The notes beneath the pieces are model-generated. The model saw only the letters and a program-made list of their open reading frames with translations. It was not told the DNA's origin and did no database searches. Source: Luteibacter sp. UNC138MFCol5.1 (GTDB lineage Bacteria > Pseudomonadota > Gammaproteobacteria > Xanthomonadales > Rhodanobacteraceae). Taken from it: a stretch of DNA of 64,000 nucleotides. The translations under genes were made by a program, and so were the position numbers. Position 1 is the first letter of the stretch. Every line of letters begins with the position of its first letter. Where the stretch lies: positions 737,384 through 801,383 of the forward strand of contig NZ_FODZ01000003.1 of the NCBI RefSeq assembly GCF_900110505.1, read 5' to 3'. Shown here in pieces: positions 28,317 through 39,754 of this stretch.

Positions 28317-29666
28317 TCACTCGCCGGCGATCGTCATCTTCTCGATGAGCCAGGAGCCGGTGAGGATGTGCGAACGGCGGTCGACGTCCGCACCCACGGC
28401 CACCAGGTTCGCGTACATGTCGCGAAGGTTGGCCGCGATCGTGATCTCTTCCACCGGGTAGGCGATCTGGCCGTTTTCGACCCAGAAGCCCGACGCGCCG
28501 CGCGAGTAGTCGCCGGTGACGATGGACACACCCTGCCCCATGACCTCGGTCACCAGCAGGCCCGTGCCGAGTCGGCGCAGCATCCCGGCGAAATCGTCGT
28601 CGCCGGTCTTCACGTAGAGATTGTGGACGCCGCCGGCGTTGCCGGTGCTCGACAGACCCAGCTTGCGTGCCGAGTAGCTCCCGAGGATGTAGCGCTGGAG
28701 CACGCCGTCGACCACCAGCGGTGCGTCCACCGTCGCGACGCCTTCGGCATCGAACACCGACGAGCCCAGGCCGCGCGGCACGAGCGGCTTCTCGTCGATG
28801 CGGAACCAGGAGGGCAGGATCTGCTTGCCCGCGTGATCGAGCAGGAAGCTCGATCGCCGGTACAGCGAACCGCCGCTGACGGCGCCGAGAAGATGCCCGA
28901 TCAGCGAACGCGCCACCTCCGGCGCGAACAGGACCGGCGCCTGCCGCGTGCCGAGGCGGCGCGCGTCGAGGCGCGAAAGCGTGCGCTCGGCGGCCTTGCG
29001 ACCGATCTCGGCGGCCGGCGTGAAATCCTCGGCGCGGCGCTGGCTGTCGTACCAGTAATCGCGCTGCATGCCCTCGTCGTCGCCCGCGATCAGGGCCACC
29101 GACAGCGAATGGCGGGTGCCCCGCTCGCGACCGAGGAAGCCGTGCGAATTGGCGTACACCGAGAGGCTCTGCCCCGCGCTGACGCTGGAGCCGTCCGAAT
29201 TCGTGATGCCCGCGACGGCCCGGCCCGCGTCCTCGATGTCCCGGCCGAGCGCGATCGCGCTGTCCACGTCGAGGTCCCACGGGTGCCAGAGGTCGAGGTC
29301 CGGGAACGCCGTGGCCATGCGGTCGGCGTCCGCGAGGCCGGCGGCCGGGTCTTCCTCGGTGAAGCGGGCGATCGCGCAGGCCTGTTCGATGGTGGCCTGG
29401 ATCGAATCCGGGTTCAGATCGGCCGTGCTGGCGGAGCCCTTGCGCTGGCCGAAGTACACGGTGAGGGCGAAACCGCGGTCGCGGGTGTGCTCCACCGTCT
29501 CCACCTCGCCCAGCCGCACGTTCACGTTCAGCCCGACGTCGACGCTCGCGGACACCTCGGCCTGGGTCGCGCCCGCGGCGCGCGCCCGGCGGATGGTGTC
29601 CTCCGCCAGGCTGGCGAGGCGGTCGAGGTCCTGGTGGCTGGTGTCGAGGGCGGCAACTTGGCTCAC
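28317..29666 (-). CDS. pmbA: Metalloprotease subunit PmbA (TldE)
   Basis: A 449-residue protein, matching E. coli PmbA (450). The N-terminal half contains SASVDVGLNVNVRLGEVETVEHTRDRGFALTVYFGQRKGSAST, and the C-terminal half includes VEEITIAANLRDMYANLVAVG and GSWLIEKMTIAG. PmbA pairs with TldD in a heterodimeric zinc protease in which TldD carries the zinc; substrates include modified peptides such as microcin B17 precursor and CcdA. The GTG at 29666, preceded by GGGAAG, gives the correct N-terminus. The partner tldD is at 38204-39643, separated by the giant GH gene. Confidence 0.95.
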   Translation of the reverse strand: MSQVAALDTSHQDLDRLASLAEDTIRRARAAGATQAEVSASVDVGLNVNVRLGEVETVEHTRDRGFALTVYFGQRKGSASTADLNPDSIQATIEQACAIARFTEEDPAAGLADADRMATAFPDLDLWHPWDLDVDSAIALGRDIEDAGRAVAGITNSDGSSVSAGQSLSVYANSHGFLGRERGTRHSLSVALIAGDDEGMQRDYWYDSQRRAEDFTPAAEIGRKAAERTLSRLDARRLGTRQAPVLFAPEVARSLIGHLLGAVSGGSLYRRSSFLLDHAGKQILPSWFRIDEKPLVPRGLGSSVFDAEGVATVDAPLVVDGVLQRYILGSYSARKLGLSSTGNAGGVHNLYVKTGDDDFAGMLRRLGTGLLVTEVMGQGVSIVTGDYSRGASGFWVENGQIAYPVEEITIAANLRDMYANLVAVGADVDRRSHILTGSWLIEKMTIAGE

Positions 29667-29690
29667 GTGGGCTTCCCGGGGGCAGAGGGT

Positions 29691-29696
29691 TAGAAT
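29691..29696 (+). promoter_or_regulatory. TAGAAT -10 of the DUF1653/yjgA pair
   Basis: TAGAAT lies in the 120-bp divergent region between pmbA and the DUF1653 gene, 90 bp before the latter's ATG. The -35 region is not recognisable. Its direction fits the plus-strand pair. Confidence 0.35.
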
Positions 29697-29786
29697 AGTC
29701 GGCCGTACGCGGCCATCCCCGGAAACATGGGGTCGCGTCGTCCGATCAAAAGCAATGCACCGCCCATGGTGCCATGGAATCCACGA

Positions 29787-30032
29787 ATGAGCGTCCGTGT
29801 CGGCTACTACCGCCACTTCAAGGGCATGCCCTACCGCGTGCTGGGAACGTCCCTGCATAGCGAAACGATGGAGGAAATGGTGATCTACCAGGACCTCTAC
29901 GACCAGCGCCGCCTCTGGGTGCGCCCCGCCGCCATGTTCGCCGAAACCGTCGAGCGCGACGGCAAGACGTTCCCCCGCTTCGCGTTCGAGCGCGAGGCGG
30001 ACTTCCAGTCCATCACGGATCTTCTCCCATGA
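29787..30032 (+). CDS. DUF1653 domain protein
   Basis: An 81-residue protein. The pattern YYRHFKGMPYRVLGTSLHSETMEEMVIYQDLYDQRRLWVRPAAMFAETVERDG is the DUF1653 signature, a small beta-rich fold related to domains that bind modified bases or small ligands; no function is proven. ATG 29787 begins the conserved region; an in-frame ATG at 29727 would add 20 weakly coding residues. It overlaps yjgA by 4 bp (ATGA at 30029), so the two are co-translated. Confidence 0.85.
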   Translation: MSVRVGYYRHFKGMPYRVLGTSLHSETMEEMVIYQDLYDQRRLWVRPAAMFAETVERDGKTFPRFAFEREADFQSITDLLP

Positions 30033-30568
30033 AGCCTTTCGACGACCGTCCGCGCGACGAGGACGACGAGGACCTCGGCCCCAGCCGCAGCGAAAAGCGC
30101 CGCAACGCGCTCGACATCCTCAAGCTGGCGGGCCAGCTGGTGGAGCTCCCGCCCAGCCGCATCCCGAAGCTCAACCTGCCCGAGGACATCGTCGACGAGA
30201 TCGGCCGCACGCGTAAGGTGACCTCGCACATCGCGCGCAAGCGCCAGCTCGCGTTCCTCGCCAAGCAGATGCGCCGGCACGGCGACGAAGCGTTCGTCGA
30301 CGCGCGCGCCGCGCTCGGCGAAGACCGCGATCGCCAGCGCCAGGAAGCCGCGCACATGCATCGCCTCGAAGCGCGTCGCGAACGCCTGCTGGAAGGCGGC
30401 GACGTGGCCCTCGGCGAACTGTTCGACGAACACCCGGACCTCGACCGCCAGCACCTGCGCTCGCTCGTCCGCCAGGCGAAGGCGGAGTGCGAGGCGAACA
30501 AGCCGCTGCACGCCTTCCGCGAGATCTACCGGATCCTGAAGGAACTCGAGGCGTCGGCAGGCGAATAA
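30029..30568 (+). CDS. yjgA: Ribosome-associated protein YjgA (DarP)
   Basis: A 179-residue, highly charged helical protein. SRSEKRRNALDILKLAGQLVELPPSRIPKLNLPEDIVDEIGRTRKVTSHIARKRQLAFLAKQMR is the DUF615/YjgA core, and the C-terminus has LRSLVRQAKAECEANKPLHAFREIYRILKEL. DarP acts late in 50S subunit assembly, promoting maturation of the peptidyl transferase region. As in E. coli, yjgA and pmbA are divergently arranged neighbours. Its 3' coding end has a degraded duplicate at 30691-30727. Confidence 0.95.
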   Translation: MKPFDDRPRDEDDEDLGPSRSEKRRNALDILKLAGQLVELPPSRIPKLNLPEDIVDEIGRTRKVTSHIARKRQLAFLAKQMRRHGDEAFVDARAALGEDRDRQRQEAAHMHRLEARRERLLEGGDVALGELFDEHPDLDRQHLRSLVRQAKAECEANKPLHAFREIYRILKELEASAGE

Positions 30569-30586: not shown

Positions 30587-30816
30587 GTAGGAGCGCGCCT
30601 TGCGCGCGACGCCGTTGGAGCCGTGAGCGACAGGGCTGAGCGCCCCGCGAGAAGATGTCGCGCGCAGGGCGCGCTCCTACGATCCGCGCTTTGACCGCCA
30701 CCTGCGCCCGCTCGTCCGCCACGCGAAGAACCGCGCGGCGGCGACGCCGTTGGAGCCGTGAGCGACAGGGCCTGAGCGCCTCGCGAGAAGATGTCGCGCG
30801 CAAGGCGCGCTCCTAC
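30587..30816. repeat. REP-like family A element and its degenerate tandem copy
   Basis: A full element runs from GTAGGAGCGCGCC (30587) to GCGCTCCTAC (30680). A second, shortened copy (30741-30816) repeats 30606-30680 almost exactly but lacks the left arm. Between them is a fragment of yjgA coding sequence. Together with the terminator the repeats fill the 314-bp convergent junction between yjgA and the giant GH gene; no other gene is present there. Confidence 0.88.
30691..30727 (+). pseudogene. Fossil fragment of the yjgA 3' coding region
   Basis: This 37-bp stretch matches yjgA 30441-30480 at 34 of 37 positions with one 3-bp gap. Translated in the same frame it reads FDRHLRPLVRHAK, against LDRQHLRSLVRQAK in yjgA. 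It is followed by a copy of the sequence just after the yjgA stop, so it derives from a tandem duplication with later deletions. It has no start codon and is not a gene. Confidence 0.8.
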
Positions 30817-30831
30817 GATCCGGGCAAAGAA

Positions 30832-30861
30832 AAAGGGCGGTGGATTTCTCCACCGCCCTTT
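30832..30861 (-). terminator. Rho-independent terminator of the giant GH gene
   Basis: A perfect 13-bp stem AAAGGGCGGTGGA (30832-30844) with a 4-base loop and its complement 30849-30861. Read on the minus strand it is followed by an additional T-rich tract (TTCTTT). It lies 21 bp beyond the stop of the 2307-residue protein. The A-rich other flank is also compatible with termination of yjgA transcripts. Confidence 0.9.
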
Positions 30862-30882
30862 CTTCTTCACCGTGTTACCGGC

Positions 30883-33800
30883 TTACCAACCGATCCCGAG
30901 TTCGAGGTGCTCCGGCTGGGTCTCGATCAGCGTCGAGCTCTGGTCCGAAACATCGTCGTACGCGAAGCCGTATGCCTTGCCGTTCACACCGTGCAGGTGC
31001 CAGAAGCGCGAATAGTAGTTCGCCGGCGACTGCTGGTAGAACGCGCCCGGATCCTTCCAGCTGCTGGTGTCTTCCATGACGTGACGGTTGAACGCGGCGC
31101 AGATCTGCGCTTCGAGCTGGCCTTCCACGCCCCACGGATCGTGCGAGCGGGCGAGCTGGTCCTTGCCTTCGAGCACGGCCTGCGTGGTCGGCTTCTCCAC
31201 CTTGAAGAGCATGCCTTCCGCTTCGTCCGGCTCCTTCGTCTGCGCCCAGTTGGTGTGGACGAAGGTCAGCACGCCGTCCACGACGGTGCCTTCGAACTGC
31301 TTGGCGCCGATCGTCATCTGCAGCACGTGGTTCTCGTAATACGCCCACGACTGGTCGATGTACGCGTCGAAGTAGTGCTCCTGCGGCTTGCCCGCGTCGA
31401 ACGCGGCCTTGCCCGGTGCCAGGATCCGGATCGGATCGGCTTCGGCCAGCTGGAACTCGGCCGGAACCTCCTGGTTGTACTGGGCGAAGATCTGCGCACG
31501 CGTCTGCGTGATGCCCGACGACTCGTGCCTGGACTTGTTGCCGCCGAACACATCGAGCGACAGCGGGATCGAGAACTGATCGACCTGCGTCGTGTTGATG
31601 AAGATGGCGTTGTCGTTCCAGGTGAACTCGTACCAGTCGTAGTACACACCGATGTTCGGGTCGGTGGCGTTGAGCGGGTTGGGGCCCGCGAAGCCGATCG
31701 AACCGTCGGCGGCCTTCAGGATCTTGATGTACATCGGTTCACCCACCGAGACGAAGATCCGGCCCGAATCCATCTTCGGCAGCTTGAGCAGCTTGGCCTG
31801 CGCGAGCGTGAAGAAGTAGTTCGAGTAGTTCTGGCCGTTCTTGGTGAGATGACCGGTGGCATCGTTGTCGGTCTCCGAAGCGGCGATCAACGTGCCGTCC
31901 GGCTTGACCCACGAGAACACCTTCGACGCCGGGTCGCGGCCGATGACGGCCACGAAGATCTGGTCGTCGCGCCACTTGCCGTTCGTCGTGTTGCGCAGCT
32001 GCGTGCCGATGTAGCCCGGATACGTCACATAGTCGAAGCCCTGTGCCGGATCGTTGGCGCCCGGGTTGCCCGGCTGCGTGCCGGTGTCGCCGTCGCCGCT
32101 GGCGGCATACACGCCCATCTCCCACAGCGAATAGCCGTAGGCGCTGGAGCGCTTAAGGCCCTGCATGCGCACGTACCGCGCCGAGACCGCCGGGAAGGTG
32201 ACGGTTTCGATACCGCCCTGGCTGTTCTCCTCGTCGTACGCGACGTTCCAGGTCTTGCCGTCGATCGACACGTCGATGCGGTAGGCGAGCGCATGCGCGT
32301 TCTCCCACGAGAGCACCACCTTGCCGATCGTCTTCACCGAACCCAGGTCGACCTGGATCCACTGGTCGTCGCTGAAAGCGGACGACCAGCGCGAGCCGCC
32401 GTCGCCGTCGTTGGCGTTGTCCGCCTTGAACGCCACGGCGTTCTCGGTATCGGACGCGACCACCGCACGCTTCAGCGCGAGGTTGCCGGTGGACGGCACG
32501 GCGTGGTCCGGCTGCTGCGGTTCGCCCGCATCCTGATCGCCCTTCTCGGGCTGCTGCGGCGCGGCCGCCTGGTACACCTCGAACTCCCACAACGAATTGC
32601 CGTAGTCCGTGGTGCGGGCCGTGCTGTTCATGCGGACGAAACGGGCCGTCTGCACGGCGAACGTCTGCGTATCGACGCCGCCCTTGCCCGTGATCGGGCC
32701 GGCCACGGTCTGCCACGATTCGCCGTCGTTGGACACATCGATCGTGTACTTCGCCGACGCGGCGTTCTCCCAGCGCATGATCACGTGGTCGAACGTCTTC
32801 GCCGTGCCGAAGTCGACGACGAGGTCGGTCGGATCGACCTTGCCCTTCGAGCTCCAGCGCGTGTCGAACTTGCCGTCGGTGGCCATGGACGCGTCCAGGT
32901 CGCCACGTTCCGGATCGACATGCGACGTCGTCTTCGCGCCGAGGGCGATGTTCACGCCACCCTTGCCGTCGCCGGGCGTGCCCGGGCTGGGCGGGTTACC
33001 ACCACCGTTGTCGCCGCCGTTGTCGCCGTCGCCGGGCTGGCCCGGCTGCTGCGCGACGGGCGCACCGAACACCGGGTCGAAACCGGCGTCGCTGTTGTCG
33101 ACCGTGAGGAACGTGTCGTCGCTGGTGGTCGACAGGCCCTGGGCGCTGACGACCTTCACGCGCAGACGCGCGCCGTTGTTGGCCGCGACGAGCGCCGGCG
33201 TCGCATAGGTGCCGTCGGCGGTGCTCGAGAGCAGCGTTTCGACGTCGAGGCCGTCGGCGTCCTTACTCACGTTGTACCAGTCGTACGAGAGCGGACCCAC
33301 GCCCGACGCCGTCACGGCGAAGTGCGCCGAACGACCCACGCCCGCCTTCTGGTTCGCGGGCTGCGCGGTGATCGCCGGAGCGACGACCTTCGTGCCCTTC
33401 ACGCAGAGGACGTGGCCCGGGTTGTTCTCCGCGACGGCACGGCTCTTCACGCCGAGCGAGCTGACCACGAACGCGTACGTCGCATCCGTCGGGTCCTTGC
33501 CTTCGGTCCAGGTCGTCCAGGCGCCCGGGAACGCGGCGGTGGAGTAGTTCTGGCCGCTGATGGCCAGCGCTTCCGCCACGGTCGGAAGGCGCATGCTGTC
33601 CTTCGCGCACTCGGTGATGGCGACCGACTGCGTGAACTGCGCGCCCTGGTCCTGGTAGCCACGCTGCACGCGGTCCCAGACCAGCCCACTGAGCGTATCG
33701 GTCACGAACTTCGAACCGGACGTGGTGGTGTAGCGTTCGCTCGCGCCGCAGCAACCGGCCGAGTTGTACACCTCGAACTCGTACAGCGAATAGCCGTAGT

Positions 33801-36800
33801 CGGTCGAGCGCTTGACGCCCTGCATGCGGACATAGCGACCGGTGACCGGCGCCTCGAACGTGACGTCCTCGGTGCCGCCGACGCTCGCCGTGTTGTGGTA
33901 CGCGTCCTTGAAACCCGAGTCCGGGTTGTCCGAATACTGGATCTTGTACTCGGTCGCGTGCGCGTTCTCCCACTTCAGCACCACGCGGTTGAACGTGCGC
34001 GAACTGCCCAGGTCGACGGTGATGTACGCGTCGTCGACCTTCTGCTTCGAGGCCCAGCGCGTCGTGGCGTCGCCGTCGACGGCCGCCCATGCCGGCGTGC
34101 CCTGCACGTTCTCCACTTCCGTGGACAGCGTCTGCTTCTGGCGGGCGAGGTTCGCGCCCGGCGGAGCCAGGGTGAGCTTCGCCGTCGCCGTCACGGTAGC
34201 GCCGTCGACGATATTGGAGACCGTCACGCTGTACGAACCGACGTCGGACAGCTGCACCGCGCCGATGGTCAGCGTGGGCAGGTCGTCGCCGACCGGCTGG
34301 CCGTCGTGCGACCACTTGTAGTGGTACGGCGTGGTACCCGCCACGATGTTCGACGCGTCGAACGTCGCCGGCTGGCCCGGGTTGGCGCGAACGTCGGCCA
34401 GGTTACCGGTGAGGACCGGGGGACGGGCGGCATTGACGGTCAGCGTCGCCACGTTCGACTTCTGCTGGCTGTTCGAGTTGCTCACGAGCACTTCGAACTT
34501 CTTCGCATTGTCGGCCGTGGAGAGCGTACCCGTCTCGTAGCTCGTCGAGGTGGCGTTGGGAATCGCGACGCCGTCGACGTACCACTGGTACTTCACCTTC
34601 GGCGAACCGGAGGCCGTCACGGCGAAGCGTGCCGACTGGCCGGCGTCGACGTTCTGCGACGCGGGCTGCGCCGAGATGACCACCGGCGAGAACGCGAACA
34701 CTCCGAGGCGGGCCGGCGTCGATTCCTGGTCCGGACCCTGGCCGTGCACGACCACGGTATAGACCGCGCCATTGTCCGCGAGCGTGGTCGCCGGCGTCGT
34801 GTAGCTCGCCGTCGTCGCGCCGGGGATCTCGACGCCGTTCTTCTTCCAGGTGAACGTCAGCGGCGGAGCGCCGGACGCCGTCACGGAGAAGTGACCGGTG
34901 TCGCCGACGGTGACGTTGTCGTCGACCGGATTGGCGATGACCGACGGCGGACCGGAGGTCGTCGGCGCCTTCGGCACGGACTGGATGGTGAACGACGTAT
35001 GGCCCGCGACGAGGCCCGGCGCCGAAGCGCTGACCGTCACGGTACCCGTCGTGAACTTCGTGCGCAGCGCGATCTTCTGCAGGCCGCCTTCGAACTGCAG
35101 CTCATGCGAGCCCGGCGAGTGGTACGAATGGATCGGCTCGGCGATACCGCCGCCCTGGTCCGGTACCTCGCCGGCGCTGTAGTCCACGTACTGCTGCGTG
35201 CCGCCGTTGAAGGTCACCAGCGACGCGCCGCTGTCGACGTCGAACGTCACCTTCTGCGAGGCCGTCGGCACCCAGTTGCCGTTCTTGTCCACCACGCGCG
35301 CGACGATGAAGGCCGCGTCGGAACCGTTCGCGGTGATCTGGAAGGCCGAGCCGTCCGGACGGACGATCGGATCCTTCGTGTTCACCACTTCGAGCTCGAT
35401 GTGGTCGGCGGTGCCCGCCGTGGTCAGCGTATCGGCGACGTCGAGGCCATTGGCGTCCTTGCGGACGTTGCCCACGGTGTCGATGCACTGCGCGACCGCG
35501 GTGCCGGCCTGCCACGTCACGTCCCAATGGACCTGGCCCGGCAGCTTCGTCGTCTTCTGCGCGACGTCCGCACCGACGATGCGACCCGTGCGCGTATCGC
35601 GGGGGCCGTTCTCCGCATCCTGCGACACCTTGTCGATGGTGTCCCACGGATTGGGCGTCTGATCGTTGCCCTGCGGCACGCCGTTGATCAGCAGACGCAC
35701 CTTCGGGCAGTTGCTGAACGCGCTGACGGTGATGTTGCCCGTGAGGTTCCAGTGGTTGGCGAGCTTCACCACGGGACGCAGGTCGTACGGCACCCACACG
35801 GACTGGTAGATGTAATACAGCATGCGCGGGAAACGGTTCGCGTCGGTCATCGACGCGTTGTTTCCACGGGCGTTGTGCCGGAACTGCTTGACCGGCGTGC
35901 CGTCCGCGTTGTGGTCGATGGCGCCGTTCTTGTACCCGTACACCCAATGGGTATCGTCTTCCAGGCCATCGGCCAGCTCGACGGTCTCACCCGGGGTATC
36001 GGCGAAATACCACTGCGCCATGCCGAACGTACCGGCCTTTCGGGCCTCCGAATACGGCACGAGATAGTTCAGCGCGAACGCCAGTTCGAGGTCGTACGAG
36101 TGACGCAGCACGCCGTCGCCCCAGTACTCCGCGCCCCAGGCGGGCTTGTTCGGCGTGGTCTGGTGCAGGTTGGTCTCGCAACCGGCCTTCGAACAGCTGA
36201 GGATGTCGCCGTTCGCCGCGTTCGGCGTGCGGTCGGCCGCGGCGCGCGGCGCGATCGAATCCCAGTTGCGCGCGAGCGTGCGCAGTTCCTGCGCGAACGG
36301 CGTATACATCACGCCGTTGTTGTGCTCCCACGCCAGGATCGATGGATGGCTGCGATCGCGGATCACGATGTCGCGATGGACCTCGCGCTTGATCGTCCAC
36401 ATGTTCGCGCACTGCGTGTCGCCGGCCTTGCAGGGATCGGCGAAGCCGTTCTCGCCGTCACCGCTGGGCTGGACGATGAACACGCCGAGCGCGTCGGCCG
36501 CTTCCACGAACTCCGGGCTCGAAGGCGAGTGGCCGGGGCGCCAGAGGTTACCGCCCGCCGCCGCCAGGTCGCGCAGATCGCGCCACTGCTGCTCTTCCGG
36601 CACGGACGAGCCGAGGCCGGGATAGTCGTAACGGCCGGAGCCGCCCCAGGTGTACTGCTTCTTGCCGTTGACGTACGGGAAATCCTTGTCCCAGGTGATC
36701 GTCCGGATGCCGAGCGTGCTCTGCTTCGCATCCACCACCGTGCCGTCGATGCTCACCGTGTGGAGCACCTTGTACATGTACGGCTTGCCGTCGAGGCTGT

Positions 36801-37806
36801 TGTTCGGATACCAGAGCGTCGGGTTGTTGACCGTCAGCGTCTCGTCGAACACGGGCTTCTCGTCGCCGGGAATCACGTGCGGGGCGAGCGTCGCCTGCTT
36901 CTGGTCCGTCGCCACCACGTTGCCGTTGGCGTCGACGATCTGGGTGGTCAGCGTCACTTCCTGCGCCGCCGCCGTCTCGTTGACGACGTTGGTCTGCACG
37001 CGGATCGTGGCCTGCTTGTGGTCGGCGCTGATCGCCTGCGTGCCGACGTACGTGCCCCAGGTGTTCTGACCCGCGTACACGTTTTCCGGGATGTGCACGA
37101 AATTCGTCACGTGCAGCTTCACCGGGCGGAAGATGCCCGACTCGGCCTGGCCGAAGCGGAAGGAGCCCGAGAAGCCCGGATCCTCGAAGAAGCCGCCACC
37201 GCGGGCGACCTTGACCGCCAGCACGTCGGTGCCGTCGAACTTCAGGAACGGTGTCAGGTCGACGATGTGCGGCACGAAGCCGATCACGTGCGTCGCCTGC
37301 GCGTCGACCTGACCCGCCTGGTTCAGCACGCCGGTACCGGGGATGAAGCGTCCGTTGATGTACACGCGGTCGCCCGTGTGCGCACCCTCGAACTCCACCA
37401 TCACCTTCTTGCCGCGGTAGGACGCGGAGTCGGCGAGCGTGGTGCGATACCAGCTGGTCTCGCCGTCCAGGCTGCCCTGGCCACCGCCGGACTCCTGGTT
37501 GATGAAGGTGGTGAAATCGTTCGCCGCGTGCGGCAGGCCGACCGTGAGCCACTTGCTGTCGTCGAAATTGACCGCGGCGCCGTCGTCGCCGTTCGGCAAC
37601 GGAGCGTAGACCACCGGGTCGTTCGGATTCTTGATCGCCTGTTTGGTGTACTTCCACGGCTGCGCGCCGAGGTTGATGTCCTGGCGGTCCGAAGGTGCGA
37701 GCGTGACGGCCTGGGCCGTCGCGGTCACGCCCAGGAACGCCACGGAGAACAGGGCGGACAGCCTCGTTCGCCGCGGACGCGGGGGTGATGCGGGATGTCG
37801 CTTCAT
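30883..37806 (-). CDS. Giant exported GH2-like / discoidin / GH64 multidomain glycanase
   Basis: A 2307-residue protein. Order: signal peptide 1-33; GH2 sugar-binding jelly roll about 75-235; GH2 Ig-like domain about 240-365; GH2-like TIM barrel about 370-690; accessory beta domains 695-945; Ig-like repeats about 955-1213; discoidin (F5/8C) 1219-1348; DUF1566/Lcl_C 1357-1470; Ig-like 1475-1570; Gly/Pro linker 1580-1617; discoidins 1618-1746 and 1775-1902; GH64 1925-2307. The GH64 end has Glu2060 and Asp2076, the same 16-residue spacing as the known GH64 catalytic pair, plus NRHVM, YYSRFWHLHG and GKAYGFAYDDVS. In GH2, Glu560 (GAEYWG) suits the nucleophile, but the acid/base position in WEHNNG is not the usual NE. 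The likely role is digestion of beta-1,3-glucan-containing walls. ATG 37806 is chosen for its signal peptide. Confidence 0.88.
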   Translation of the reverse strand: MKRHPASPPRPRRTRLSALFSVAFLGVTATAQAVTLAPSDRQDINLGAQPWKYTKQAIKNPNDPVVYAPLPNGDDGAAVNFDDSKWLTVGLPHAANDFTTFINQESGGGQGSLDGETSWYRTTLADSASYRGKKVMVEFEGAHTGDRVYINGRFIPGTGVLNQAGQVDAQATHVIGFVPHIVDLTPFLKFDGTDVLAVKVARGGGFFEDPGFSGSFRFGQAESGIFRPVKLHVTNFVHIPENVYAGQNTWGTYVGTQAISADHKQATIRVQTNVVNETAAAQEVTLTTQIVDANGNVVATDQKQATLAPHVIPGDEKPVFDETLTVNNPTLWYPNNSLDGKPYMYKVLHTVSIDGTVVDAKQSTLGIRTITWDKDFPYVNGKKQYTWGGSGRYDYPGLGSSVPEEQQWRDLRDLAAAGGNLWRPGHSPSSPEFVEAADALGVFIVQPSGDGENGFADPCKAGDTQCANMWTIKREVHRDIVIRDRSHPSILAWEHNNGVMYTPFAQELRTLARNWDSIAPRAAADRTPNAANGDILSCSKAGCETNLHQTTPNKPAWGAEYWGDGVLRHSYDLELAFALNYLVPYSEARKAGTFGMAQWYFADTPGETVELADGLEDDTHWVYGYKNGAIDHNADGTPVKQFRHNARGNNASMTDANRFPRMLYYIYQSVWVPYDLRPVVKLANHWNLTGNITVSAFSNCPKVRLLINGVPQGNDQTPNPWDTIDKVSQDAENGPRDTRTGRIVGADVAQKTTKLPGQVHWDVTWQAGTAVAQCIDTVGNVRKDANGLDVADTLTTAGTADHIELEVVNTKDPIVRPDGSAFQITANGSDAAFIVARVVDKNGNWVPTASQKVTFDVDSGASLVTFNGGTQQYVDYSAGEVPDQGGGIAEPIHSYHSPGSHELQFEGGLQKIALRTKFTTGTVTVSASAPGLVAGHTSFTIQSVPKAPTTSGPPSVIANPVDDNVTVGDTGHFSVTASGAPPLTFTWKKNGVEIPGATTASYTTPATTLADNGAVYTVVVHGQGPDQESTPARLGVFAFSPVVISAQPASQNVDAGQSARFAVTASGSPKVKYQWYVDGVAIPNATSTSYETGTLSTADNAKKFEVLVSNSNSQQKSNVATLTVNAARPPVLTGNLADVRANPGQPATFDASNIVAGTTPYHYKWSHDGQPVGDDLPTLTIGAVQLSDVGSYSVTVSNIVDGATVTATAKLTLAPPGANLARQKQTLSTEVENVQGTPAWAAVDGDATTRWASKQKVDDAYITVDLGSSRTFNRVVLKWENAHATEYKIQYSDNPDSGFKDAYHNTASVGGTEDVTFEAPVTGRYVRMQGVKRSTDYGYSLYEFEVYNSAGCCGASERYTTTSGSKFVTDTLSGLVWDRVQRGYQDQGAQFTQSVAITECAKDSMRLPTVAEALAISGQNYSTAAFPGAWTTWTEGKDPTDATYAFVVSSLGVKSRAVAENNPGHVLCVKGTKVVAPAITAQPANQKAGVGRSAHFAVTASGVGPLSYDWYNVSKDADGLDVETLLSSTADGTYATPALVAANNGARLRVKVVSAQGLSTTSDDTFLTVDNSDAGFDPVFGAPVAQQPGQPGDGDNGGDNGGGNPPSPGTPGDGKGGVNIALGAKTTSHVDPERGDLDASMATDGKFDTRWSSKGKVDPTDLVVDFGTAKTFDHVIMRWENAASAKYTIDVSNDGESWQTVAGPITGKGGVDTQTFAVQTARFVRMNSTARTTDYGNSLWEFEVYQAAAPQQPEKGDQDAGEPQQPDHAVPSTGNLALKRAVVASDTENAVAFKADNANDGDGGSRWSSAFSDDQWIQVDLGSVKTIGKVVLSWENAHALAYRIDVSIDGKTWNVAYDEENSQGGIETVTFPAVSARYVRMQGLKRSSAYGYSLWEMGVYAASGDGDTGTQPGNPGANDPAQGFDYVTYPGYIGTQLRNTTNGKWRDDQIFVAVIGRDPASKVFSWVKPDGTLIAASETDNDATGHLTKNGQNYSNYFFTLAQAKLLKLPKMDSGRIFVSVGEPMYIKILKAADGSIGFAGPNPLNATDPNIGVYYDWYEFTWNDNAIFINTTQVDQFSIPLSLDVFGGNKSRHESSGITQTRAQIFAQYNQEVPAEFQLAEADPIRILAPGKAAFDAGKPQEHYFDAYIDQSWAYYENHVLQMTIGAKQFEGTVVDGVLTFVHTNWAQTKEPDEAEGMLFKVEKPTTQAVLEGKDQLARSHDPWGVEGQLEAQICAAFNRHVMEDTSSWKDPGAFYQQSPANYYSRFWHLHGVNGKAYGFAYDDVSDQSSTLIETQPEHLELGIGW

Positions 37807-38203: not shown

Positions 38204-39643
38204 TCAGGCGGCCGTGCCGCCGACCGTCATGCCATCCACGCGCAGGGTCGGCTGACCGACGCCGACCGGCACGCTCTGGCCGTCCTTGCCGCAGACACCC
38301 ACGCCTTCGTCGAGGGCGAGGTCGTTGCCGATCATCGAGACGCGCGTCAGCACGTCCGGGCCCGAGCCGACGAGCGTCGCGCCCTTCACCGGGCGCGTCA
38401 CCTTGCCGTCCTCGATCAGGTAGGCCTCGCTCGCGGAGAACACGAACTTGCCGTTCGTGATGTCCACCTGGCCGCCACCGAAGTTCACGGCGTAGAGGCC
38501 ACGCTTCACCGACCGGATGATTTCCTCGGGCTCGCGATTGCCGGCGAGCATGTAGGTGTTCGTCATGCGCGGCATCGGCAGCTGCGCGAACGATTCGCGC
38601 CGGCCGTTGCCGGTCGACTTCACGCCCATCAGGCGGGCGTTGAGCTTGTCCTGCATGTAGCCCTTGAGGATGCCGTTCTCGATGAGCGTGGTGCACTCCG
38701 TCGGCGTGCCCTCGTCGTCGATGCTGAGCGAACCGCGCCGACCCGGCAGCGTGCCGTCGTCGACGACCGTGACACCCTCGGCCGCCACGCGCTGGCCGAT
38801 CCGGCCGGCGAACGCCGAGCTGCCCTTGCGGTTGAAGTCGCCTTCCAGGCCGTGCCCGATGGCCTCGTGCAGGAGCACGCCAGGCCAACCCGGCCCGAGG
38901 ACCACGGTCATGCTGCCCGCGGGCGCGTCCACGGCGTCGAGGTTGACCAGCGCCTGGCGCACGGCCTCTTCGGCGAACGCGTGCGCGCGGCCGTTCTCGA
39001 TCAGCTCGCGATAGCCGTAGCGGCCGCCGCCGCCCGAATGGCCCTGCTCGCGACGGCCGTTCTGCTCGGCGATCACCTGGACGTTCAGCCGCACGAGCGG
39101 ACGCACGTCGGCCGCGAGCGTGCCGTCGGAGCCCGCGACGAGGATGGTATCCATCGTGGCGGCGAGGCTGACGACCACCTGCTTCACCCGCGGATCGCGC
39201 GAGCGGGCGTAGGCATCCACCTCGCGCAGCAGCGCGATCTTCTCTTCGTTCGGCAGGCTCTCCACCGGATCGATGGCGGGATAAAGGCCACGACCGGTGG
39301 CGAGGGAGAGCGACTTGCCCGCACCCGCCCCGCCCTGCGCGATGGCGCGCGCCGCGCGCGACGCCTCGAGCAGCTGCGGAAGCACGATTTCGTCGGAGTA
39401 CGAGAAGCCGGTCTTCTCGCCCGAGATCGCCCGGACCCCGACGCCCTGCTCGATCGAGTGGCTACCGTCCTTCACGATGCCCTCTTCGAGCACCCACGAT
39501 TCGCTGCGCGAATGCTGGAAATACAGGTCGGCCGCATCGATCGACGGCCCCATGAGCTGGGAGAACACGCGATCCAGGTCGGTGGAGGCCAGTCCGCCCG
39601 GGGTGAGCAGGCGGCGTTCGGCGAGCGAAATCAGGGAATCCAT
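38204..39643 (-). CDS. tldD: Metalloprotease subunit TldD
   Basis: A 479-residue protein (E. coli TldD 481). The zinc motif [11 protein letters not shown] has His259, Glu260 and His264; a conserved cysteine lies in the C-terminal [19 protein letters not shown]. Other landmarks are [13 protein letters not shown] and [28 protein letters not shown]. With PmbA it forms a barrel-shaped protease that degrades unfolded peptides. ATG 39643 is preferred over a TTG at 39661. It ends the leuS-to-tldD minus-strand block, 200 bp downstream of yhdP. Confidence 0.96.
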
Positions 39644-39754
39644 CGGGTCTGCCGGCAACAATTCATGGGAACCCCGGATCTGGGGTCGAAGGCGCCCAGC
39701 TTAAACCCTGGGCGGCCGTTTGGCAGGTGCATGACGCCGCCGCCGAGGCTCGTC

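Follow-up and report, generated by a model that had tools for sequence, protein, structure and literature searches.

We describe here a gene of Luteibacter sp. UNC138MFCol5.1 that occupies positions 30883..37806 (minus strand) of a 64,000-nucleotide stretch of contig NZ_FODZ01000003.1, hereafter called the window, and that encodes a 2,307-residue fusion of a glycoside hydrolase family 2 (GH2)-type module, Ig-like and discoidin domains and a family 64 (GH64) beta-1,3-glucanase domain. The GH2-GH64 architecture is a recurrent family and not a lone novelty; what is new is one odd feature added to known multimodular wall enzymes, i.e. a GH2 module without the acid/base residue. We tentatively favour the view that the protein is exported, probably by type II secretion, and that it binds and digests walls of the fungal type by means of its discoidins, its GH64 domain and the altered GH2 module, in which Glu452 is likely to act as acid/base.

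A recurrent GH2-GH64 family

The minus-strand frame is open from 37875 to a stop at 30883, and the ATG at 37806 gives 2,307 residues without interruption, as had been stated in a sequence-only reading of this DNA made by a model without database searches. The GC content at the three codon positions (0.61/0.47/0.91) is coding-like. The order of domains proposed in that reading, GH2 followed by Ig-like and discoidin domains and then GH64, was recovered by a Pfam domain search. PF16483 (Glyco_hydro_64) matches residues 1935-2303 (30898..32004) with an E-value of 2.5e-80 and 271 bits against a cut-off of 27, covering positions 5-368 of the 370 of the profile. In alignments with solved enzymes 5h4e (E 2.9e-89) and 9vp9 cover nearly the whole domain, 5h9x aligns in two pieces, and 3gd0, a laminaripentaose-producing enzyme, aligns over 296 residues. 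The catalytic Glu and Asp of 3gd0 and 5h4e align with Glu2060 (31627..31629) and Asp2076 (31579..31581), 16 residues apart, which confirms the earlier assignment of the C-terminal region and of its catalytic pair; the place of Glu2060 is occupied by Glu in 5h9x and by Ala in the otherwise matching 5h9y.

The same reading had proposed a probable new architecture. As a lone novelty this did not survive a search for related proteins: 293 proteins were retrieved (window included), 123 of them with GH64, and 118 of these also carry the GH2 module. In a scan of named genomes that gave 77 loci from the best 80 of 124 matches, the fusion is present at 53 of the 77. The fusion is thus common, but as to its being already described, no title on a GH2-GH64 protein appeared among the papers listed by open-licence literature searches. 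Such a protein is likewise absent from the sections available to us of PMC4850484 (on Luteibacter), PMC11497827 (on fungal necromass) and PMC10470514 (on mushroom soft rot by Janthinobacterium), the last of which has no GH64 in its table. The genome of the window is Luteibacter-like, its nearest named locus, with 97% identity in the GH2 module, being that of Luteibacter sp. UNCMF331Sha3.1. GH64 was found in 41 of the 197 genomes of the window's bacterial family; of the 47 matches listed there, 31 lie in frames of more than 2,000 codons, counted irrespective of GH2.

In a quick tree of 83 GH2 modules (76 with known GH64 state), which is to be trusted with care, seven changes of GH64 state are needed, and the Dyella and Rhodanobacter rows fall among Acidobacteriaceae. 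A separate GH64 gene was found in the flank at 5 of the 24 loci without a fused copy. Four of these genes lie on the same strand at 86-163 bp (L071, L073 and L084 of Acidobacteriota and L106 of Fibrobacterota), and those of L071 and L106, the two that were run in Pfam, pass the Pfam cut-off. The fifth (L070, a Stenotrophomonas bin; E 9.7e-174) lies about 3 kb from the GH2 gene.

Two further observations concern the composition of the family. Glu2060 is invariant in all 123 GH64 domains (window included), whereas Asp2076 is conserved in 100 of them and replaced by Asn in the other 23. The Asn proteins (P0086, P0089, P0091, P0092, P0095, P0097-P0100, P0102, P0103, P0105-P0107, P0109-P0111, P0113, P0114 and P0116-P0119) all belong to one size class (2,462-2,793 residues) and represent a further case, besides that of GH2, in which an active site of the family is altered; those with an organism in the listed name are from Dyella. 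In the Fibrobacterota assembly fen_1185 the GH2 lineage is present as 13 or more free-standing copies (on L093, L101, L103, L106, L107, L110, L112 and L113), with three in a row both in L103 and in L112.

The altered active site of the GH2 module

The module has the multi-domain fold of GH2 with a (beta/alpha)8 barrel, according to Pfam and a predicted model. A sugar-binding-type jelly roll at residues ~77-235 (37102..37578) scores 25.5 bits in Pfam, under the cut-off of 28, and is seen in the model; an Ig-like domain follows at residues 258-368 (36703..37035; PF00703, E 1.1e-13, 52 bits against 23), and then the barrel at residues ~378-640 (35887..36675; PF02836 at 378-517, 28.5 bits against 21, and the model). 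Together the GH2 matches of Pfam span residues 116-517. Glu560 (36127..36129) on strand beta7 and Arg423 on strand beta2 correspond to the GH2 nucleophile after strand 7 and the Arg of strand 2, the strand numbers being our own assignment on the predicted model.

In alignments, the place of the catalytic acid/base Glu of other GH2 enzymes is taken by Gly498, within E494-H-N-N497-G498 (36313..36327), and Glu is found there in none of the 288 proteins compared (window included). The sequence-only reading had taken the module for an ordinary glycosidase that removes a second linkage. Since the Glu is missing in all 288, such activity cannot be read from the family name. By contrast with position 498, Glu452 (36451..36453), Glu494, Glu560, Arg423 and Asn497 are invariant in all 288. 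The NE motif of GH2, Asn before the acid/base Glu, is replaced by N497-G498. GH2 has been split into 23 subfamilies, and in the part of that study available to us departures from NE are given for GH2_14 (SE), GH2_16 (SD), GH2_19 (TV, NA and NQ in part) and GH2_21 (PMC12243196), so the absent motif excludes an ordinary GH2 enzyme and not membership of GH2. The same part describes beta-glucuronidase activity in GH2_21, with Trp for the acid/base, at a variable position, and E402 of UniProt T2KN75 as its hypothesised replacement (PMC12243196). The nearest solved relative of our module, the GH2 beta-glucuronidase 6hpd, also has no acid/base Glu. From its title and its Trp we take 6hpd to be the GH2_21 enzyme of that study, and from the citation there we presume that its source is the ulvan pathway of Formosa agariphila.

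The substitute acid/base is likely to be Glu452 and less likely Glu494. We favour Glu452 because the model places it in the loop after strand 3, at the barrel entrance, where LacZ has Glu416. In E. coli LacZ, Glu416 ligates the same magnesium ion as the acid/base Glu461. The equivalence of Glu452 and Glu416 is our assumption from a by-eye placement on the LacZ sequence, good to about one residue.

The main rival explanation, which we consider unlikely but serious, is that the module is a pseudoenzyme, a sugar-binding docking scaffold, and that GH64 alone cuts. The loss of the acid/base Glu in every protein compared favours this, as one lost catalytic residue in a conserved pocket is the classical picture of a pseudoenzyme, and the myxobacterial P0144 is one example of a protein in which discoidin and Ig domains accompany the module but GH64 is missing. 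Against it stand the invariance of the nucleophile position, Arg423, Asn497 and both added Glu residues, the beta-glucuronidase activity reported, in the part seen of PMC12243196, for GH2_21, where the acid/base is replaced as well, and the free-standing versions of about 935 residues without other domains (at least 13 in the one Fibrobacterota assembly), which are hard to explain as docking parts. In comparison with five congeneric orthologues, a simple counting script gave ratios of nonsynonymous to synonymous substitution rates (dN/dS) of 0.13-0.23 in GH64, 0.14-0.20 in the GH2 part (0.15-0.23 in the barrel taken by itself) and 0.26-0.45 along the Ig stretch. The GH2 and GH64 modules are both under purifying selection, so the GH2 module is not decaying.

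Proposed wall target, export and function

Pfam finds F5/8 type C domains in three stretches, in agreement with the three discoidins of the sequence-only reading: discoidin 1 at residues 1219-1347 (33766..34152), discoidin 2 at 1619-1745 (32572..32952) and discoidin 3 at 1775-1900 (32107..32484). Discoidins 1 and 3 are CBM32-like. They match the glucanase/chitosanase domains 4zy9, 4zxe and 2rv9 (E ~1e-28 to 3e-29; nearest solved 4zy9, E 3.3e-29) and by this sequence match to solved domains resemble chitosan-binding CBM32 modules. In the accessible portions of the respective papers, the domains DD1 and DD2 of a chitosanase from Paenibacillus are stated to be specific in binding for chitosan (PMC5651945), chitin, lichenan and Avicel were bound by a discoidin from a beta-1,3-glucanase of another Paenibacillus (PMC2789033), and Candida was inhibited by a GH64 enzyme that carries a lectin domain (PMC8394091).

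The fungal wall is our best single guess for the target, with callose and other glucans as possible ones. That the same enzyme logic serves another target, i.e. plant callose or an algal or bacterial beta-1,3-glucan, is in our opinion unlikely, but it deserves serious attention. GH64 enzymes act on accessible beta-1,3-glucan whatever its source, the carriers are mostly soil or plant-associated, judged by their names, and no fungus-specific gene family was found among the 20 neighbouring window proteins scanned. The likeness of the discoidins to chitosan-binding domains speaks for a fungal wall instead, as do the inhibition of Candida just cited and the chitin-pointing names of two carriers of the GH2 lineage, Andreprevotia chitinilytica (unfused) and Amantichitinum (fused).

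The split loci with adjacent genes and the secretion genes beside relatives lay beyond the view of the sequence-only reading. Across genera the commonest neighbours are GspG, GspE and GspF, and at least one of them stands beside the gene in all 18 loci of seven groups: Nitrospirillum (4), Paraburkholderia (4), Burkholderia (3), Pandoraea (4), Caballeronia, Trinickia and an unclassified alphaproteobacterium. One GspE-like match in 1 of 9 Dyella loci was left out of this count. Of the 14 loci with secretion genes on the same strand, 12 have the start of the first one at no more than ~100 bp from the cargo-like gene; in Pandoraea the arrangement is divergent. A secretin-like gene is present in L062, L063 and the four Pandoraea loci, and stands alone in the Stenotrophomonas bin. 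The cargo-like genes of L062, L063 and L067 have no GH64, which makes the GH2-discoidin part the constant element. Against the equivalog cut-offs of NCBIfam GspG passes, whereas GspE, GspF and the secretin remain below, so this secretion system is divergent. In the sections seen of a Janthinobacterium study, loss of type II secretion went with a strong decrease of one glucanase, a slight decrease of a second and an increase of a third (PMC10470514). As a separate observation, L062:15586-22364 and L080:1155-8836 hold compact divergent type II clusters with several genes of ~190-275 aa that have no Pfam match; three of these cluster genes have no NCBIfam match either.

The role in binding and digesting walls that the sequence-only reading had suggested is kept as the likeliest one. 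In the mechanism that we propose, the N-terminal signal, plausible by eye, would direct the protein to Sec export, and a type II secretion system would probably carry it out of the cell. The discoidins would hold it on a chitosan-, chitin- or glucan-rich wall, where GH64 would cut beta-1,3-glucan, with inversion, to pentasaccharide-sized pieces. The GH2 pocket would remove a second, perhaps charged, beta-linked sugar by a retaining mechanism, with Glu560 as nucleophile and the loop-3 Glu452 (or, less likely, Glu494) as substitute acid/base. In a wider form, which we regard as doubtful when taken as a whole, a widespread GH2 lineage would have moved its acid/base from loop 4 to loop 3 (Glu lost at 498, Glu452 gained) and would strip a charged beta-linked sugar that shields fungal beta-1,3-glucan. 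Its coupling to GH64, either within one protein or through adjacent genes, would have arisen repeatedly, and Nitrospirillum and bacteria of the Burkholderia type would export it through a compact type II system dedicated to it.

A number of points weigh against these proposals. The 288 proteins were chosen by similarity to the query, so part of their uniformity is built in, and we found no measured activity for any member of the clade. Glu494 is as invariant as Glu452, in the ordinary GH2 enzyme 5t98 a Glu precedes the place of Glu452 by one position, Glu452 was placed by its loop and strand in the model and not by a Glu452-Glu560 distance, and the published E402 of T2KN75 could not be mapped onto either residue. 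The loop-1 triad is RYD in the clade, HHD or HQD in most ordinary GH2 proteins seen and TNA in 6hpd, so that the substrate of 6hpd need not carry over to the clade. The case for a fungal target is built solely from the enzyme family, the likeness of the discoidins and the ecology of the hosts. The GH64 matches at the four close loci are weak (E 3.5e-20 to 9.1e-32), and at 19 of the 24 unfused loci (18 without any GH64, and L051, whose GH64 lies in an overlapping frame, probably through a frame break) no separate GH64 gene was found in the examined flank, where some contigs end; these coupling counts are plain observed numbers. No secretion gene was seen next to the gene at the 8 Luteibacter, 2 Janthinobacterium and 1 Scleromatobacter loci or at those of Acidobacteriota and Fibrobacterota. 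The GspG of the window genome is on another contig, and relatives of GspE, GspF and secretin are present in this genome at 30-40% identity; type II export is therefore only presumed for Luteibacter.

That the protein is simply an exo-beta-galactosidase joined to a glucanase, as the source names beta-galactosidase and BoGH2A and the NCBIfam GalA and GalB matches (232 and 219 bits) would have it, is very improbable, as these scores are far under the 900-bit cut-offs, the module has no NE motif, and its loop 1 differs from the HHD/HQD type. Many entries named beta-galactosidase thus belong to a lineage whose catalytic centre is unlike that of known beta-galactosidases, and correcting these names changes the conclusions on carbohydrate use drawn from surveys of soil genomes. 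With an active GH2 part, the lineage would be a large natural test of acid/base relocation in a retaining glycosidase; if the pair attacks fungal walls, a recurrent secreted enzyme of bacteria feeding on or living with fungi has been named.

The Luteibacter locus and comparison with known systems

The remaining features of the gene complete the picture. Residues 1-33 (37708..37806) form by eye a putative Sec signal peptide with an Arg-rich n-region, a LSALFSVAFLGVTA core and an AQA end. DUF4982 and Glyco_hydro2_C5 are found by Pfam at residues 691-905 (35092..35736), followed by three Ig-like domains at residues ~950-1208 (34183..34959; Ig_3 and I-set in three stretches each, borders by eye). 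The sequence-only reading had counted at least four Ig-like domains, of which Pfam supports these three, while a probable fourth at residues ~1475-1570 (33097..33384) is seen by eye only. Its DUF1566 module, which we take to be Lcl_C, has a match at residues 1367-1469 (33400..33708), with 24.3 bits, below the cut-off of 34.9. A terminator-like hairpin with a T-run, identified by eye, lies directly 3' of the gene (30827..30860). Between it and the next gene, at 30640-30820, there are two repeat copies (gatcgtaggagcgcgcc...gcgcgcgacatcttctcgcg) that resemble scattered extragenic repeats. An Rfam scan of the window at gathering scores matched no family, so that a riboswitch or other RNA control upstream of the gene was rejected, and a tRNA search of the window gave none.

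A plus-strand frame at 30655-37788 (2,377 codons), antisense to the whole gene, was considered as a second protein and judged to be a shadow of codon usage, because codons whose reverse complement is a stop are nearly absent from this high-GC gene. With synonymous codons shuffled, the antisense strand stayed open for a median of 1,683 codons, and the real 2,300 was attained in 4 of 200 shuffles. The real run is thus longer than most shuffled ones, but every shuffle retains the same few stop-making codons and changes only their position.

The gene is flanked upstream by tldD (38204..39661, minus strand), its conserved left border, and downstream by a 204-aa gene (29897..30511, minus strand), without a Pfam match at E 0.001, and by pmbA (28317..29858, minus strand), the right border. 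Both border genes are of the PmbA/TldD family and were placed by a neighbour scan. On the tldD side the near neighbours are yhdP, RNase E/G, Maf and leucyl-tRNA synthetase. A polysaccharide-utilisation locus was rejected, as no glycosidase or sugar transporter match was found in the 20 scanned of the 42 other gene-like frames of the window.

GH64 is present in 18 of 23 genus genomes (window's included), and 20 of 23 GH64 matches in the genus sit in frames of more than 2,000 codons. Sixteen loci were obtained from 13 GH64 genomes, and in 12, one each from 12 genomes, the gene lies between tldD and pmbA, with the 204-aa gene conserved. The other four (L026, L029, L034 and L035) are elsewhere or are extra copies. 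Because of these long frames and the same neighbours in 12 of 13 congeners, the fusion is no assembly accident. In the five genus genomes without GH64 (one of them 80% complete) no GH2 module of the clade was found with the same query that finds the window genome. In the four of these tested, tldD and the PmbA-family match are ~1.2-1.7 kb apart, which leaves no room for a 7-kb gene. The occupancy of the site and the joint absence of GH2 and GH64 indicate that the gene comes and goes as one unit. Two congeners have 3-4 kb between tldD and the fusion gene (L023:1163-4325 and L030:11109-14903), against 0.4 kb in the window. Two Luteibacter genomes have elsewhere a second GH64 frame of ~2,350 codons together with one of 660-667 codons (L034 and L035 of G015; G004:C11 and G004:C14), and in the L034 frame a discoidin stands ahead of GH64.

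It is useful to compare the protein and its relatives with systems already known. The GH64 part resembles the laminaripentaose-producing enzymes (5h4e, 9vp9, 5h9x, 3gd0 and GluY of Cellulosimicrobium) in the domain itself, in the Glu/Asp pair and in a C-terminal GKAYGFAYDDVS-like motif, but the ones named in the part seen of PMC8394091 have a single module or one extra domain, whereas in the window GH64 forms the C-terminal end of a protein of 2,307 residues. The GH2 part shares with GH2_21 and 6hpd the replaced acid/base Glu, and equivalents of Glu452 and Glu494 are common to 6hpd and the clade; the two differ in that 6hpd has Trp where the window has Gly, and in loop 1, with T-N-A in place of R-Y-D. 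Discoidins 1 and 3 are like DD1 and DD2 of the Paenibacillus IK-5 chitosanase/glucanase over ~129 residues, a likeness of sequence, and are joined here to other catalytic modules; 4zy9, 4zxe and 4zz5 are presumably the entries of DD1/DD2. Finally, Hxc/LapA and Txc/CbpE of Pseudomonas are type II systems with a neighbouring dedicated cargo. The relatives of the window gene are similar in as much as a cargo-like gene stands beside GspG, GspF and GspE, in some loci with a secretin, while they differ from them in that this adjacency is not found in Luteibacter and that their GspE, GspF and secretin fall under the NCBIfam equivalog cut-offs.
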